A stretch of 51,217 nt of DNA, from positions 1 through 51,217 of IMG/VR virus record IMGVR_UViG_3300011115_000598, one strand, 5' to 3'. Shown in pieces: positions 1 to 47,733 of this stretch (positions within the stretch are counted from its first letter, which is position 1; the number at the start of each line of letters is the position of its first letter). This DNA is from a virus. Both the position numbers and the translations under genes were made by a program. The notes under the pieces are model-generated. The model searched no databases. It worked only from the letters and a program-made list of their open reading frames with translations, and was not told where the DNA came from.

Positions 1-1016
1 ACTTCAGATTGAAGTTCTAAAAGTTCTGCATTTTTCTTTGTGGCAATGACAATTGCTTTACGGCAATCTGCTAACTTAGATTCTTTATCTTGAATATGTT
101 TCTCTTTTTGAAACTTTGGTAGATTCTGACCACAGCACTTACATAATGCATTTTCTTTTAAAGATTCAATCTCTTCAACTAAAGCAGTTTCTAATACTTC
201 TGCTTTTGTTAACATTGCAGGAACATCTTTTAGAGCACTTAGGCTTGTTAACTTCTTGGTGAGTTTAGCCGATACATCTTTTAGATTCTTTTCATGCTTT
301 GCCTGAAGCACATTATCATTTGCAATCTTAGATGTGTAATCTTGAATAGAAGATTCAATAGCCTTTATCTCTTCTACTGCGGTAGTTTGAATTGTTTCTA
401 ATACTTCTTTTTGAGACTTAATCTTTTCATGAACAATTTTTAATAAACTTTCCTGTTCACCAAGCGATAGTTTAAGACTTGATAGTTGTCCTTTAACATA
501 CAGATTCATATCAGCAAGAATATCAAGGTTAAGCAGACCTTCAATGATCTTACGCCTTTCAGAAGGAGTCAGTTGCATGAAAGGAACAAAGTTTGATTTA
601 CCAAGAATTACTACCTGCTTGAATGCTGCATAATCAAATCCAAGAATATTTTCTTCAAACATCTCTTGGTAATCTTTAGTCTTAGCATTCTGGTCAAGCA
701 TTTCTCCATCTTTGAAGATCTCAAAGAATTTTGGTGCAAGACCACGGCGAACTAGGAAATGACAGTTAGACTTCTTGAATTCAATTTCAACAACACATTG
801 CTTGGCATTCACTGTATTAATAAGTTGTGGAATATTAATAGGTCTGAATGGCTTTCCAAACAAACCAAAGCACAAAGAGTCTAATAAAGCAAAAGACTTA
901 CCATGTCCATTAGTACCTGTGACTAAAGTTGTTTTATAATTATCAAGTTTGATCTCAGAAAAATTATTACCAAATGAACCAAAGTTTTTAAAACGAACTG
1001 TTAGAAAATCTATCAA
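1..1016 (-). CDS. 46: gp46-like recombination nuclease ATPase subunit (Rad50/SbcC family), partial
   Basis: The frame runs off the left edge, so only the N-terminal 338 residues are present. It has a Walker A motif GTNGHGKS at residues 34-41, a Q-loop segment (QVVILGKSN), a long coiled-coil-like stretch, and a CxxC zinc hook at C292-C295, all expected for Rad50/SbcC proteins. With gp47 it should form the complex that resects DNA ends for recombination-dependent replication. The start is inferred as TTG: an in-frame stop lies just upstream, an AAAGGA ribosome binding site at 1023-1028 sits 6 nt before it, and TTGA overlaps the stop of gene 47. The C-terminal Walker B lobe lies outside the window. 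Identity is firm from motifs and neighbours. Confidence 0.93.
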   Translation of the reverse strand, partial: MIDFLTVRFKNFGSFGNNFSEIKLDNYKTTLVTGTNGHGKSFALLDSLCFGLFGKPFRPINIPQLINTVNAKQCVVEIEFKKSNCHFLVRRGLAPKFFEIFKDGEMLDQNAKTKDYQEMFEENILGFDYAAFKQVVILGKSNFVPFMQLTPSERRKIIEGLLNLDILADMNLYVKGQLSSLKLSLGEQESLLKIVHEKIKSQKEVLETIQTTAVEEIKAIESSIQDYTSKIANDNVLQAKHEKNLKDVSAKLTKKLTSLSALKDVPAMLTKAEVLETALVEEIESLKENALCKCCGQNLPKFQKEKHIQDKESKLADCRKAIVIATKKNAELLELQSE

Positions 1017-2059
1017 TCTTCATCCTTTGACATTGCGGCATTATATGCTGAGTTTATAATATCAGCAAGCACATTTTTATTAATTGATTTCTCTATAACT
1101 GTATCAATCTCTTCATGAAGTAACTGTAGAGTATCTTTATGAATATCCACAGCCACTAGATCTGGATTTGCAGTCACATCTTCAGTCACAGACAATTCTG
1201 CTACCCCTGCTTCATAAAATTTATCCATGTACTTCTCAAAGGCTGGACCTTTAGTTCTATTCTTGATAAAGATCTTAACATATGTATCTTTAAACTTTGA
1301 GTAGTCTAACTTTTCTGGGTTGGCTTCATCGTAGTCAAGCGTATAGAAAAGCCTTTTTGGATTCTCAATAAATTCAAGCGTTCTTGTTGCAAAATCAAAT
1401 ACATGAAATCCTTTGGCTTCCCAAACGTCTGAGAAAGCCATCTGGTACTGTGATCCCAAGTAATGTATATTGTCCCGACTAGATTTAATGTGATAATGAC
1501 CAGTAAGAACATATTCAAATTTGTCAAAATGTTTTGGGTCATAGCCATGCTCAATAAAGATACCGCGAATACTCTGAAAGCCACACAACTCTAAATGCCC
1601 TAATAGTAGAGAGCAAGTGGTGTTGGTAATAAACTCTGCCGATTGAATTTGATTCTCTGGATTAATCCAAGGCAATAATGCCACACAACCAGCAGAGGTT
1701 TGAATCTCTATTGGTTCTGAATGAATCTCCCAGTTTGAATACTGTTGTGCAATTTCTTGTAAGGAATTGACTGTATTGTTATTCTTATAGTATGTATCAT
1801 GATTACCACAGATGGCAATACACTTTACGCCAAGATCTTGAAGTGGTTCAAAGAACCTTGTACGAACTTGTTGAAGTGTCTTAAAATTAATATATTTTCT
1901 ACGATCAAAAACATCACCTAGATGAAAGATGGTCTTAATATCGTTCTCTTTAATATATGGAAATAACTGTCCCTCAAAGAAGGACAGAAAGTATTCCAGG
2001 ACTATTGGGGAATCTGCTTTGTACCCAAAATGGGTATCGTTAAGAATAATTGATTTCAT
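1013..2059 (-). CDS. 47: gp47-like recombination nuclease subunit (Mre11/SbcD family)
   Basis: 348 residues. It carries the metallophosphoesterase motifs in order: D8-x-H10 near the N terminus, GDVFDRR at 48-54, GNHD at 85-88 and GHYH at 187-190. These residues bind the two catalytic metals in Mre11-type nucleases. The protein partners with gp46, encoded immediately downstream with a 4-nt TTGA overlap, to process double-strand ends during recombination-dependent replication. Its start overlaps the stop of the gp55 gene (ATGA), so 55, 47 and 46 look translationally coupled. Length is close to T4 gp47. Start is the ATG at the beginning of the conserved first beta strand (MKSIILND). Confidence 0.95.
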   Translation of the reverse strand: MKSIILNDTHFGYKADSPIVLEYFLSFFEGQLFPYIKENDIKTIFHLGDVFDRRKYINFKTLQQVRTRFFEPLQDLGVKCIAICGNHDTYYKNNNTVNSLQEIAQQYSNWEIHSEPIEIQTSAGCVALLPWINPENQIQSAEFITNTTCSLLLGHLELCGFQSIRGIFIEHGYDPKHFDKFEYVLTGHYHIKSSRDNIHYLGSQYQMAFSDVWEAKGFHVFDFATRTLEFIENPKRLFYTLDYDEANPEKLDYSKFKDTYVKIFIKNRTKGPAFEKYMDKFYEAGVAELSVTEDVTANPDLVAVDIHKDTLQLLHEEIDTVIEKSINKNVLADIINSAYNAAMSKDED

Positions 2060-2625
2060 AGATCCAATGTTGGTTTTTTAGATTTACGAGTCCGTTTTCC
2101 TTTTTTTGGTTTAAGCATAATATCAAATCTATCCATGTCAGAATCGGTTAAACCAAAGAAATCCCTACGACCAATATCAATTCCAGCATATGTTTCATTA
2201 AACCAATTATGAAAGTCTTTGTCATTCTTTTGTTCTGCAAATTTGTATTGAGTGTACTTTTCTCTTTTTTCTTTATTAATAATTCGAACAAAGGAAAACC
2301 AACAAATTTGAGTTAAGTAGCCAAAGGGGCTGGATGATTTAGTTGGATCAAAATTATCAACATATGTTATGCAGTTTAAAACGGCATCTGATACCATTTC
2401 TTCTCTGTAATGATAATTTGCAAAGTTTGGACGAAAAGATAGGCGAGTAGCAATTTTTAAAATGCACTCACCTATATAATCTGGTAACTTTGGTTTCTTT
2501 TTACCAATAGTTTCTGCCTCTTGTGTTTTGGTTTTATGTATAATTAAAGCATCTAATAGATCTTGATTACTCACGTAATCAGCATCTGATGCATTTTTCT
2601 TTTTGTATTTCTTTTTCACACTCAT
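2056..2625 (-). CDS. 55: gp55-like late sigma factor
   Basis: 189 residues, matching T4 gp55 in length and pattern: a basic N terminus, then a sigma region 2-like segment (about residues 75-125) containing NFDPTKSSSPFGYLTQ, followed by a KEKREK basic patch. In T4 this small sigma directs host RNA polymerase to TATAAATA late promoters, aided by gp33 and the gp45 clamp. The C terminus is very basic and ends TLDL, reminiscent of the clamp-binding tail of T4 gp55 but shorter. No Shine-Dalgarno is visible; a TATAAT directly abuts the ATG, so a GTG two codons in (2617-2619) may be the true, leaderless start. The gene overlaps 47 by ATGA. TATAAATA-like boxes elsewhere in the window support the role. 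Confidence 0.9.
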   Translation of the reverse strand: MSVKKKYKKKNASDADYVSNQDLLDALIIHKTKTQEAETIGKKKPKLPDYIGECILKIATRLSFRPNFANYHYREEMVSDAVLNCITYVDNFDPTKSSSPFGYLTQICWFSFVRIINKEKREKYTQYKFAEQKNDKDFHNWFNETYAGIDIGRRDFFGLTDSDMDRFDIMLKPKKGKRTRKSKKPTLDL

Positions 2626-2653
2626 ATTATATACTGAATCCAGTCAAATGCAA
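2626..2653 (-). promoter_or_regulatory. Candidate early promoter for gp55-47-46
   Basis: Read on the minus strand: TTGCAT (2648-2653), a 16-nt spacer and TATAAT (2626-2631). The -10 box touches the annotated ATG of gp55, so the predicted transcription start (about 7 nt downstream) falls on the GTG third codon at 2619. The 16-nt spacer equals that of the other early promoters in this window. The -35 is a weak match, so confidence is moderate. Confidence 0.45.
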
Positions 2654-2657
2654 TAAA

Positions 2658-3551
2658 TTATCTAAGAGATCTTAGGTATATCCAATTTGTGCCATCAAAT
2701 GTATTACGGTATTTATATTCTCCGGGAGATTGTTTGCTACTTACAAACATATAAGTTCGATCTTTCATACAAAAACTTAAAAAACAAAAATCTCCATTAT
2801 TTCGTGGATGATTTATTGGATCGAGTCTGGCATCAACTAAATTATTTCCTAATTTATTAATCAATAATCCCGAAATAGATTGATCGTGTCTATGTCCAAT
2901 TTTACCATATGTTTTTATTTCATGATCCCAAGAACCAAGACCAGCACATTCTTCGATGGTATTCCAATGAAGCCACTCTTCAGCAAAAGCAACAGATTTC
3001 TTATTTTTTTGAAGAACAATCATACCTGATGCATGTTGCAAACAATACTTATATTCTTGCATTCCCATAATATCCATACACTTCTCTAATGTAAAATTTT
3101 CATGTGTATGATCGGCAATATGTGTGTTATTACATACCCATACTGCACTAGCACTAAGTATTCCACCATTATATTCACACATACTTTTTATAACTTCAAT
3201 ATCATGTATTCCAGGAATTATTTGTTTATTTTCCCACCATTCTGGAGATACATCATTGTAAATTAAAAAATCACCATCATTTAATTGCTTTAAACCTTCA
3301 CATATAACAAATGGTTTATAACATCTACCATTCAAAGCAGGATCAGGATTATCTAGAAGTTTTTTATTATTTTTATAAAAACTAGTTTGTAGAATATCTT
3401 CCCACTTCCAAAAAGCAAAATTGGTAATTCCAAATTGCGGATTATCTAGAAATAATTTTAATATTTTATCTTGTGTATCAGAATACTTTCCGTCTTTTCT
3501 CTTATACCTATCATCCGACACAGTAGTAAATAAAACTTTAGAAGATGTCAT
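2658..3551 (-). CDS. Putative GT-A-like glycosyltransferase, function unknown
   Basis: 297 residues. I do not recognise a named family with certainty. The central segment DGDFLIYNDV resembles the acidic nucleotide-sugar/metal binding turn of GT-A folds, and the later segment GHRHDQSISGLL resembles a pattern seen in transferases of polysaccharide clusters. No signal peptide or membrane helix is visible, so it should act in the cytoplasm. It is the last gene of the sugar cassette before gp55, 1 nt from the upstream epimerase gene, so it is part of the same transcript. Sugar transfer is inferred mainly from context. Confidence 0.5.
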   Translation of the reverse strand: MTSSKVLFTTVSDDRYKRKDGKYSDTQDKILKLFLDNPQFGITNFAFWKWEDILQTSFYKNNKKLLDNPDPALNGRCYKPFVICEGLKQLNDGDFLIYNDVSPEWWENKQIIPGIHDIEVIKSMCEYNGGILSASAVWVCNNTHIADHTHENFTLEKCMDIMGMQEYKYCLQHASGMIVLQKNKKSVAFAEEWLHWNTIEECAGLGSWDHEIKTYGKIGHRHDQSISGLLINKLGNNLVDARLDPINHPRNNGDFCFLSFCMKDRTYMFVSSKQSPGEYKYRNTFDGTNWIYLRSLR

Positions 3552-44508: not shown

Positions 44509-44934
44509 ATGGCGTATAGAACTAAATATTTACCTAAAAATCCTAATAAGTATATAGGTGATATTACAGCCATTACATGTAGATCTTTGTGGGAAAGACA
44601 TGTTTGTAAATTTTTGGATGAAAGTTTACAAATAACAAAATGGTCTTCTGAAGAAATTGTTATCCCATACTATAGTCCTATTGATAAAAAAATTCATAAC
44701 TACTATCCAGACTTTTTAATTGAACTCAGTATAAACGAGACTGTAGAACATTGGTTAATTGAAGTAAAACCAAAAAAACAAACTTATTTAAAAGAAAATG
44801 CTTCTAAAAAAGAAACATTGACTTGGATAATAAATACTTCTAAATGGAATGCCGCAAAAGCGTATTGTGCTAAAAACAATATGTTATTTAAAATTTTAAC
44901 AGAAAAAGAACTTTTTTCAAATGCCAACAAATAA
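44509..44934 (+). CDS. 4: gp4-like head completion protein (nuclease-fold)
   Basis: 141 residues from ATG 44509; the open frame extends upstream, but MAYRTKYLPKNPNKYIGD is the natural N terminus, matching T4 gp4. CRSLWERHVCKFLDE, TKWSSEEIVIPYYSPIDKKIHNYYPDFLIEL and WLIEVKPKKQT follow T4 gp4 and the restriction-endonuclease-like (TnsA-like) fold with D-x..-ExK. In T4 it completes heads before tail joining and has been called gp50. Overlaps the next gene by 14 nt. Confidence 0.85.
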   Translation: MAYRTKYLPKNPNKYIGDITAITCRSLWERHVCKFLDESLQITKWSSEEIVIPYYSPIDKKIHNYYPDFLIELSINETVEHWLIEVKPKKQTYLKENASKKETLTWIINTSKWNAAKAYCAKNNMLFKILTEKELFSNANK

Positions 44935-45472
44935 TTCAATTACAAATATAAAAGATTATTTTTCTCGTCACGGCGGACTTCAAAGAAATAACCGATACCA
45001 AGTATATTTTGAAAACCTTCCAAGTGGAATAGGACAAGGTAATGCTTTAAATATTCAAGCTTTAAACGCTACTATAGGCGCAAGAGCTATAGATGCGATT
45101 GCTGATAATTTAACAGGATTTGGGTATGGTCGTGCTATTCCAAGAAATCAAAAATTTATGGGTGGTGTATTTTTAGCTTTCCCTATCACCAATGATAACC
45201 ATATTATGAAATTGTTTGATAATTGGTTTAACGCCATATATGCTGGAAAAAAACAAAAAAAGAATTTTACGGTTCAGTATTATGATACCTTGGTCAAAAA
45301 CACAAATATGATTGTTGATGTGTTAGACCCAAATGGTAATGTAAATACAAAAATTAGATTCTTTGAAGTTTATCCTTTAGAGACACAACCAATAGAATTT
45401 TCTATGATGGAGAATAATCAGTATTCAGTATATCAGGTGTTAATGAATTATCGCGAGTTTGTTTACTTATAA
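44921..45472 (+). CDS. gp19-like tube/baseplate protein (gp54 position)
   Basis: 183 residues. The N terminus SITNIKDYFSRHGGLQRNNRYQVYF repeats the signature of the gp19 proteins at 30806 and 31410, so it is a third relative. It then has AFPITNDNHIMKLFDNWFNAIYAG and EVYPLETQPIEFSMMENNQYSVYQVLMNYREF, the tube fold. It is near the gp48-like gene, and gp54 (gp19-like fold) pairs with gp48 in T4, so it may be the gp54 analogue. Translationally coupled with gene 4 by overlap. Confidence 0.65.
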   Translation: MPTNNSITNIKDYFSRHGGLQRNNRYQVYFENLPSGIGQGNALNIQALNATIGARAIDAIADNLTGFGYGRAIPRNQKFMGGVFLAFPITNDNHIMKLFDNWFNAIYAGKKQKKNFTVQYYDTLVKNTNMIVDVLDPNGNVNTKIRFFEVYPLETQPIEFSMMENNQYSVYQVLMNYREFVYL

Positions 45473-45482
45473 GGATTAAAAT

Positions 45483-46139
45483 ATGATTGAAAATATAATT
45501 GATTTGTTGCCTACTTATAGCACTGAACTACCATTCAGTAAACAAAAAGTATTATTTACACCATTTAAAGTGAAAGACGCTAAAAATATTTCTATTATTC
45601 TTCAAGAAGATAATAAAAAATTAGCTCTTATTGCAATGGTCAATGTATTAAAGAACTGCACAAAAAACATTGTAATACAAGATCTATGTCTAGCAGATGC
45701 TGAATATTTGTTTTTACAAATAAGAGGAAAAAGCATTGAAGAATATATTACATTAGTTTTTAATGATATTAAAAAACAAGTTAATATTAATGAATTAAAA
45801 ACAAGAAATGCAATTCATACATCCGAAATTATAATAGGAACAAATTTAAAAATTGTTCTTGAAACACCACAAATTAAAGATCTATTAGAAATAGATACAC
45901 TTAATAAAGAAGATATTGTTAAAGCATGTATTAAAAAATTAATTATTAAAAATGAAATATATCATACAAATAAATTTGTTCCAGATGAACTAAAAAATGT
46001 TACAGAGAATCTACCATTATCCTTTATGGTTAAAGTTGATGAATTTTTAAAAAATCAACCAGAGGTATATGTTGAATTAGATTTTGGTAATGAAAAAAAG
46101 GAGGTCTCTGGGATTTTGAATTTTTTTACTTATCGGTGA
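45483..46139 (+). CDS. 26: gp26-like baseplate hub/tail assembly chaperone
   Basis: 218 residues (T4 gp26: 208). LPFSKQKVLFTPFKVKDAKNISIILQED, then AMVNVLKNCTKN and LCLADAEYLFLQIRGKSIEEYI match the T4 baseplate-hub assembly family. AAGGA ribosome binding site. Near the end, GAA AAA AAG places a slippery A_AAA_AAG heptamer in frame at 46094-46100; a -1 shift there yields a 280-residue transframe protein using the following frame instead of stopping at EVSGILNFFTYR. Confidence 0.82.
   Translation: MIENIIDLLPTYSTELPFSKQKVLFTPFKVKDAKNISIILQEDNKKLALIAMVNVLKNCTKNIVIQDLCLADAEYLFLQIRGKSIEEYITLVFNDIKKQVNINELKTRNAIHTSEIIIGTNLKIVLETPQIKDLLEIDTLNKEDIVKACIKKLIIKNEIYHTNKFVPDELKNVTENLPLSFMVKVDEFLKNQPEVYVELDFGNEKKEVSGILNFFTYR
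46094..46100 (+). other. Programmed -1 ribosomal frameshift site A_AAA_AAG
   Basis: The heptamer occupies codons 205-206 of gene 26 in the correct phase (A, AAA, AAG). The -1 frame has stops (TAA, TGA) 2-3 codons upstream and is then open without interruption to 46324. The AAG overlaps AAGGAGG, a strong Shine-Dalgarno-like string with no suitable start codon 5-10 nt downstream. A T_TTT_TTT run at 46121-46127 is a second in-phase slippery string. Confidence 0.75.
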
Positions 46140-46324
46140 AATTCTTTGATTTATATGATTTTTATAAAACAAATTTCACCTTAATAACTAATTTTTCTTG
46201 GAATCTTACTGAATTAGAAAATATGTTTTTTTGGGAAAGAGAAGTATATATTAAATTACTGAGCGACTATAACGAAGAACAGAGAATTAAGAAAAATCAA
46301 TTACAACAAGGACATGGATTTTAA
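46136..46324 (+). CDS. gp51-position frame, likely C-terminal part of a gp26 frameshift product
   Basis: The 62-codon frame begins with GTG overlapping the gene 26 stop (GTGA) but has no ribosome binding site. It lies in the -1 frame of gene 26, and from the A_AAA_AAG site the -1 frame reads GGLWDFEFFYLS and then the present protein. The body LTELENMFFWEREVYIKLL is a compact helix pair. T4 gene 51 follows 26 in the same place. Expression by frameshift, giving a gpG-GT-like pair, is the favoured reading; coupled re-initiation at GTG is the alternative. Confidence 0.65.
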   Translation: MKFFDLYDFYKTNFTLITNFSWNLTELENMFFWEREVYIKLLSDYNEEQRIKKNQLQQGHGF

Positions 46325-46851
46325 TGAATTCAGATAACAATACAAATGAATTTAAGTTAGATGTATCTGCAGATATGCAGGTTCTTAATACCAATATAGA
46401 TTCTTCGGATTCCTCTCCTAGTTCTGTTATTCATCCACACAGAGATATATCGGCAGTGGACAGTATTCCTTTTACACCATCTCAGGACGTAGAAGGAATT
46501 GAAAATATATTATTTCAGTCTTATCCATCATTAGAACTTCCAGAATCTATGATCTTTGAACCAACTGCAGAAAAGATTAAACCTTCTGCACAGGTACATC
46601 AATCTGCCTTACACGGAATAAATTTTCAAGTAAAAGTTCTTCCAGAAGAAGCATTGGATAAAGCCACAGAAGTTGGAAATAATTTAAACTTGGTAAGAAA
46701 AGATTTAGAAAGTCTTTCAAGTCAGATGCGCAATCCAGACAATCGGCTCAATGCACGAGATAATTATGATGAGAAAATTACTATTCCTGCGGCAAATTTA
46801 ATATTTGAAAGTAGAAAAAATAGAATGACTCAACAACCTGAATGGGTATAA
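46324..46851 (+). CDS. Unknown protein at the end of the gp4-26 operon
   Basis: 175 residues, no recognised domain. It is rich in Ser, Asp and Asn and lacks hydrophobic segments, so it is probably disordered at its N terminus (DSSDSSPSSVIHPHRD). A helical stretch around EEALDKATEVGNNLNLVRKDLESLSSQM follows. The start overlaps the preceding stop (TAATG). Followed by a terminator. T4 places gene 27-28 here, but no similarity is evident. Confidence 0.5.
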   Translation: MNSDNNTNEFKLDVSADMQVLNTNIDSSDSSPSSVIHPHRDISAVDSIPFTPSQDVEGIENILFQSYPSLELPESMIFEPTAEKIKPSAQVHQSALHGINFQVKVLPEEALDKATEVGNNLNLVRKDLESLSSQMRNPDNRLNARDNYDEKITIPAANLIFESRKNRMTQQPEWV

Positions 46852-46852
46852 A

Positions 46853-46874
46853 AAAAGCCCCTTGCGGGGCTTTT
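46853..46874. terminator. Bidirectional intrinsic terminator
   Basis: AAAAGCCCC (46853-46861), loop TTGC, GGGGCTTTT (46866-46874): 9-bp stem with T-runs on either strand. It ends the plus-strand operon at 46851 and the gene 32 transcript ending at 46876. Confidence 0.9.
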
Positions 46875-46875
46875 C

Positions 46876-47733
46876 TCAATCATTCTCCATTTCGGAGAAG
46901 TACTTTAGAGGATCCTTTTCCTCAATGTCTTCACGGATTGTAGTATCCGTTACATCATCTTCAATGCTCTTTGACTCGGTAAACTGAGCACGAATATCGT
47001 CTCCAGTTGCCTTCTTGAGTCGAGCCTTGAGTTCATCATAACTCTTGAACTGACTCTTGTCGGTAAACTCCTTGAGAGCATATTGCTTCTTCCAAAGTTC
47101 CTCTAGCTTCTTATCATCTCCACCAAGAAGAGGAGCAGGAGCAGCAAACTCTGAACGATCATAGTTCACATATCCACCGACATTCCGAATCTTAATCTTG
47201 AAGTCTGCGCCAGTCCAAAAGTTAAATGGATCAACAGCAGTCTCATCCTTAAATTCTGGGTGAGCAAGTGCTTGAATCTTTTGGAAGATCTTGGTACCAT
47301 ACTGATAAAGAAAAACCTTTCCCTTATTCTCTGGATTTGCTGGATCTTCAACAACAAGAATGTTGGAGATGTAAGTCAACTTGCGCTTACGATTACGTGC
47401 AATATTCTTGTCATCCTCGATACCACTATTCCACAGTTCGGTATTTGCCTCGCAAACAGGACACTTCTCTCCAAGAGTAGTTGGGCAGTTTTCAAACAAC
47501 CATCCACCCTTGCCCTTGAAAGCATGACTGTAAACTGAAACGAAAGGAGTATCTTCTCCTTCAATTTCTGGAAGGAATCGAATTACTGCATAACCGTTTC
47601 CAGCCTTATCAATACCAGGCTTCCAAAGACGATCATCTTTGTAACTCTCCTTTGAGGTGAGCTTATCCATGCGCTCGGTTAGTGATGCGACTGAGTTCTT
47701 ACTCTTCTTCTTGAAATCTGAAAAATTTGCCAT
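46876..47733 (-). CDS. 32: gp32-like single-stranded DNA-binding protein
   Basis: 285 residues from ATG 47733; a TTG seven codons upstream is not likely, as it lies in a leader hairpin. The core WKPGIDKAGNGYAVIRFLPEIEGEDTPFVSVYSHAFKGKGGWLFENCPTTLGEKCPVC includes the zinc ligands (His, Cys, CxxC) found in T4 gp32. ILVVEDPANPENKGKVFLYQYGTKIFQKI is the second OB strand set. The C terminus (DDVTDTTIREDIEEKDP...EMEND) is acidic, the usual site for partner binding. It coats replication and recombination intermediates. Confidence 0.95.
   Translation of the reverse strand: MANFSDFKKKSKNSVASLTERMDKLTSKESYKDDRLWKPGIDKAGNGYAVIRFLPEIEGEDTPFVSVYSHAFKGKGGWLFENCPTTLGEKCPVCEANTELWNSGIEDDKNIARNRKRKLTYISNILVVEDPANPENKGKVFLYQYGTKIFQKIQALAHPEFKDETAVDPFNFWTGADFKIKIRNVGGYVNYDRSEFAAPAPLLGGDDKKLEELWKKQYALKEFTDKSQFKSYDELKARLKKATGDDIRAQFTESKSIEDDVTDTTIREDIEEKDPLKYFSEMEND

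Follow-up and report, generated by a model that had tools for sequence, protein, structure and literature searches.

The lambda gpG/gpGT pair and other G-T frameshifts are said to have been set out by Xu, Hendrix and Duda in 2004. In lambda, the short and long chaperones act on the tape measure protein and the tube protein, respectively (PMC5009743). The 2016 review of recoding by Atkins described the tail-chaperone frameshift as conserved "except T4" (PMC5009743). Tail assembly chaperones of T4-like phages were identified by Vladimirov, Gautam and Davidson (2022, Virology 566:9-15), as cited in PMC10885494 and PMC12846349. According to the PRFect paper, which cites that work, some T4-like phages carry a short gene and a long fusion gene, with no frameshifting (PMC10885494). 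Poly-T slippery sequences in "TAC-N genes of T4-like phages" are also cited (PMC12846349). The chaperone frameshift of Vandenendeviridae and Andersonviridae (phage Adele, PMC12846349) differs from the one considered here, as it uses a GTTTTT motif and belongs to a different phage family. A search by gene names found no earlier report of a 26/51 frameshift, the 2022 study being represented by the papers that cite it. The initial annotation of the DNA analysed here knew of no demonstrated frameshift for the T4 26/51 pair. That holds for T4, which has none, although the chaperones of T4-like phages had been recognised in 2022. The literature thus already covers the T4 chaperones and, reportedly, slippery poly-T sites of T4-like phages. 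The breadth of the survey, a two-part stimulator with covariation, a 16-nt Shine-Dalgarno (SD) spacing in one clade, and the inverse occurrence of the heptamer and a separate long gene may be new.

In this study, we analysed a 51,217-nt stretch of DNA from a T4-like phage, called the window, in which gene 26 is followed by an open frame at the position of gp51. The features are listed in Table 1. Gene 26 begins with ATG and ends with TGA at 46137-46139. It lies in a short plus-strand operon with the order gp4-like head closure gene, gp54-like tube gene, gene 26, -1 extension, and 175-aa ORF. As in lambda gpG/gpGT, there is a short chaperone with a predicted -1 shift near its 3' end, a short extension in the next frame, and a tube gene upstream. 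Unlike lambda, no sequence similarity to gpG/gpGT was found, and the next gene is the 175-aa ORF, with no obvious tape measure gene. A position beside the tape measure gene is typical of G-T type frameshift genes, though it does not define them. Tape-measure-like genes lie two genes downstream in HTVC008M and Cr30, and several relatives have, instead of the 175-aa ORF, a long gene in the vicinity that is tape-measure-like or of another kind. A terminator-like palindrome, AAAAGCCCC-TTGC-GGGGCTTTT at 46850-46876, separates the operon from gene 32 on the minus strand and is probably a two-way terminator. Promoter and terminator scans around the operon gave nothing above chance.

Table 1. Coordinates of the features at the gene 26 locus of the window
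Feature	Position	Strand	Basis or remark
Upstream gene, tail tube / gp54-like	44921-45472	+	phrog_45 tail tube, E 2e-14
Gene 26, short tail assembly chaperone, 218 aa	45483-46139	+	PF12322 T4_baseplate, phrog_150
A_AAA_AAG, site proposed in the initial annotation	46094-46100	+	phase of gene 26; not conserved
AAGGAGG, SD-like, presumed stimulator, 16 nt 5' of the heptamer	46098-46104	+	anti-SD duplex energy
T_TTT_TTT slippery heptamer, supported -1 shift site	46121-46127	+	phase of gene 26, conservation
-1 frame extension, 65 codons and TAA; gp51 domain, predicted C-terminal part of the 280-aa long form	46127-46324	+	phrog_634
Stem-loop, 3' stimulator (presumed from presence and conservation)	46135-46180	+	folding z, covariation
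Downstream ORF, 175 aa	46324-46851	+	ATG overlaps the extension stop (TAATG)

The gene 26 product matched PF12322 with 91.4 bits (E 8.5e-26) and the baseplate hub family phrog_150 with E 1.9e-24, and the -1 extension matched phrog_634, baseplate hub assembly catalyst, with E 1.5e-15. The fusion of the two scored higher against phrog_150 than gp26 alone (102.8 versus 87.6 bits), because the phrog_150 model extends over the junction. An AlphaFold2 model of gp26 had a pLDDT of 86.8. Over residues 1-85, this model aligned at Z 7.2 with 2OB9, the tail assembly chaperone of HK97, which ranked second and above unrelated rows; the value is middling by the yardstick of the tool. The first row was 3FGX (Z 7.7), both alignments falling within residues 1-94, and the next row had Z 5.4. 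A Foldseek search of the PDB with the model gave no significant match (E 0.9-2, with about 2 for the HK97 chaperone), the HK97 chaperone emerging only in the subsequent Z-scored alignment, and solved structures searched by sequence with the gp26 profile and T4 gp51 gave nothing relevant. The predicted gp26 fold, taken with the 2022 identification of T4-like chaperones, tends to support a short/long chaperone pair.

We compared the junction in 181 loci, consisting of the window, 160 loci from viral contigs found in two scans, and 20 named phages. Clustering at 70% protein identity left 66 representatives. T_TTT_TT(T/C), a heptamer of the X_XXY_YYZ form, was present in the phase of gene 26 in 181/181 loci and in all 66 representatives below 70% identity, as TTTTTTC in 40 and TTTTTTT in 26. 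The loci belong to cyano-, pelagi-, rhizobio-, vibrio-, aeromonas- and other T4-superfamily phages. Of 269 other Phe-Phe pairs in the same loci, used as a control, 83 were slippery in this way. The heptamer was also kept at 50-54% GC, in Sinorhizobium phage phiM7 (50%) and Stenotrophomonas phage Mendera (54%), in which TTT is the rarer Phe codon. The naive log10 P of this conservation is about -25, a guide value only, as it assumes independent lineages. The frame that follows gene 26 was -1 in every locus, the contig ending inside the extension in 2 of the 181. Over 54 codons, the -1 frame was free of stops in 66/66 representatives; the other frames never were, with means of 5.8 and 5.5 stops. 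The AT-rich window contains 110 T_TTT_TTY strings on its two strands. Neither this heptamer nor A_AAA_AAG is unusual alone. What counts is conservation, and T_TTT_TTT is conserved whereas A_AAA_AAG is not. From these comparisons, a -1 frameshift at T_TTT_TTT very probably gives the short and the long tail assembly chaperone. The frameshift of the gpG/gpGT type that had been proposed to fuse gp26 to the frame at the gp51 position is thus supported, the T heptamer and the -1 frame being conserved in relatives.

The initial annotation had placed the shift at A_AAA_AAG, with AAGGAGG as an overlapping stimulator, giving a 280-aa product in which GGLWDFEFF replaces EVSGILNFF. Much of that description was correct. 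The coordinates and phase of A_AAA_AAG were confirmed, and the heptamer is a strong one, that of dnaX. Two -1-frame stops lie just 5' of it, and from 46094 the frame runs without a stop to the TAA ending at 46324, so that the claimed opening just upstream and the transframe length of 280 aa both held. The T heptamer, a second in-phase site 27 nt 3' of A_AAA_AAG, had been missed. A_AAA_AAG was found in 4 of the 181 loci, the window and three others (L011, L013 and L024), compared with T_TTT_TT(T/C) in all, and is missing from 177. The comparison of junctions in relatives, which the same annotation had proposed, therefore bore out the frame relation and not the A_AAA_AAG heptamer. In 18 of 37 distinct window-type close relatives, a -1-frame stop lies between the position of A_AAA_AAG and the T heptamer. 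The T heptamer itself marks the exact opening of the -1 frame in 9 representatives, in which no site farther upstream can serve. Between the two positions, codon differences in the gene 26 frame were 1741 synonymous to 1274 non-synonymous, indicating coding constraint, whereas those in the -1 frame were 262 to 3217, indicating none. 3' of the T heptamer, the -1 frame is the constrained one. A shift at A_AAA_AAG would also discard the G-x-x-FF end of gp26, which is invariant, and AAGGAGG overlaps A_AAA_AAG, whereas a stimulator of the SD type should lie 5' of the site at which the shift takes place. The candidate was rejected on its rarity, the intervening stops and the lack of -1 coding constraint, and we consider it very improbable. 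A_AAA_AAG is probably incidental to AAGGAGG, and a minor extra use of it may occur in the window alone.

As the products of the two sites would be equal in length, they can be told apart at the bench only by a peptide or a mutant. The junction peptides predicted for the window are EVSGILNFFYLSVK for a shift at the T heptamer, GGLWDFEFFYLSVK for a shift at A_AAA_AAG, and EVSGILNFFTYR for reading without a shift. The peptide KK-GGLWDFEFF proposed earlier is probably wrong, and EVSGILNFF-YLSVK is expected.

The gp51 frame might instead encode an independent small protein. The stop of gene 26 is overlapped by a GTG at 46136-46138 (GTGA, 46136-46139), as had been noted, at which ribosomes could re-initiate if they did not use another local start. 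Overlaps of the GTGA and TAATG types occur here and in some relatives, and databases annotate gp51 as a separate gene. Against this, the first 20 codons of the extension lack ATG, GTG and TTG altogether in 8 of the 66 representatives and lack ATG in 20. A start with an SD-like 4-mer was present in only 4 of the 66. The homology of T4 gp51 crosses the junction, and an independent start would leave the conservation of the heptamer and the hairpin unexplained. Independent initiation was rejected on the missing starts and SD sequences among the representatives and has little chance of being right. Slippage of RNA polymerase on the T run would be another way to join the frames, and the DNA of the window clade does carry seven Ts in a row. 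However, the run is only T6C in most representatives, in phages reaching 54% GC, and both the conserved SD-like element and the hairpin a few nt beyond the heptamer are of a kind to which ribosomes respond. Polymerase slippage is therefore extremely improbable as the source of the fusion.

The T_TTT_TTT heptamer lies within a recoding cassette. A dnaX-type recoding cassette consists of a 5' SD-like element, a heptamer and a 3' stem-loop. The window has the same three parts; unlike dnaX, its heptamer is of the T_TTT_TT(T/C) type, and the SD-like element of the window clade is displaced by about 8 nt in the 5' direction. In 21 window-type representatives, the mean anti-SD duplex energy at the offset of AAGGAGG was about -8.8 kcal/mol, versus +0.65 elsewhere. 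AAGGAGGT, 16 nt 5' of the heptamer, is nearly invariant in window-type loci, where no conserved start codon follows AAGGAGG, a near-perfect SD sequence. In cyano-type loci, the SD-like element is of the GAGGGA type and is most pronounced 8-15 nt upstream of the heptamer. In representatives that have Glu at this position, its codon was GAG rather than GAA in a ratio of 27:6, versus 242:511 for the rest of these genes (p 1e-8). As the spacing is 16 nt in the window clade versus about 8-9 nt in the cyanophage type, the stimulator role of the element in the window clade is uncertain. AAGGAGG had been put forward as a stimulator overlapping its site. It is indeed kept in the window clade, but as a presumed stimulator located 5' of the T heptamer.

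The stem in the window (z -3.4) has 9 bp, pairing 46135-46143 with 46172-46180, and 7 nt separate it from the heptamer. For the 60-nt stretches 3' of the heptamer, the mean folding z relative to shuffles was -2.19, versus -0.09 in controls (p 1e-16). Across 28 distinct relatives, 98% of the stem cells were paired, and 3 pairs were altered on both sides. The covariation score was 0.171, versus 0.110 +/- 0.011 in shuffles. In two of these pairs, neither change alters the amino acid (Val GTA/GTG with Phe TTT/TTC, and Lys AAG/AAA with Asn AAC/AAT), so that protein constraint cannot account for the changes. The compensatory changes in this stem may represent few events or a single evolutionary episode. 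In L063, L070, L071 and L084, a similar 5' arm (CGGTAAGAT) lies with a nearer 3' arm (ATCTTACCG) about 5-30 nt 3' of the heptamer, which suggests that the hairpin is kept while its partner sequence moves. By their presence and conservation, the SD-like element and the hairpin are predicted to be stimulatory signals. It is conceivable, though we lean against it, that the window clade has a variant cassette in which a strong AAGGAGGT at 16 nt, about twice the cyanophage spacing, works with the conserved hairpin, which some members appear to re-form with a different 3' arm.

In T4, gp26 (208 aa) and gp51 (249 aa) are encoded on opposite strands, and both match PF12322. T4 gp51 scored 284 bits against the fusion model phrog_150 over residues 3-248, and its alignment with the predicted transframe proteins runs through the junction, against EGLQSFF-RISMAHEDLESYYKINF. 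T4 gp26 thus resembles the short form, and T4 gp51 is colinear with the whole predicted long form across the junction. The difference is that T4 has two separate genes without the heptamer, gene 26 ending in GAG TTC TTT GAG (Phe-Phe kept, G TTC TTT in place of the slippery run), whereas the window has one gene and a predicted -1 shift. The heptamer was absent from gene 26 in 6/6 sampled phages with a separate long gp51, T4 and five more, with or without Phe-Phe. About 1,330 records carry such a separate long gp51. Straboviridae hold both encodings, the frameshift type in KVP40-like phages, Ah1 and S13, and separate genes in T4, 44RR and RB49-like phages. Among the T4-superfamily lineages sampled, the site is kept in all that have no separate long gene and missing from the six that have one, which is the likely reason that T4 is the exception. 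On sequence homology, gp26 and the predicted transframe protein of the window are the short and long tail assembly chaperones of the T4 superfamily. Klebsiella phage CP-p-KP-21068 (PV864763.1, L193:1501-2792) has a long gp51 gene and a short gp26 gene in tandem on the same strand, flanked by gp54 and gp25. Such a tandem would stand midway between the frameshift type and the T4 type with its divergent genes, as expected after duplication.

From the sequence comparisons, we infer that the shift occurs and that a minority of ribosomes make it. Most ribosomes would read gene 26 to its stop and produce the 218-aa short chaperone. A minority would be held by the upstream SD-like sequence and the downstream stem-loop. 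These ribosomes would slip back by one base on T_TTT_TTT (46121-46127), the two Phe tRNAs re-pairing, and continue in the -1 frame to 46324. The predicted 280-aa long chaperone would read ...EVSGILNFF-YLSVKFFDLYDFYKTNF... across the shift. By analogy, the short and the predicted long form are the counterparts of lambda gpG and gpGT. As in lambda, the short form would bind the tape measure protein, and the long form would recruit the tube protein via the gp51 domain.

The gp51 frame should probably be joined to gene 26 in a single CDS annotation. What hundreds of cyanophage records call "gp51, baseplate hub assembly catalyst" is probably not a free-standing protein and instead forms the C-terminal end of a transframe product. 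Lacking a start of its own, the frame is overlooked or cut short in public records. It is unannotated in L005, L006, L092 and L093, and is given an internal start in L004, L098, L100, L101 and L010.
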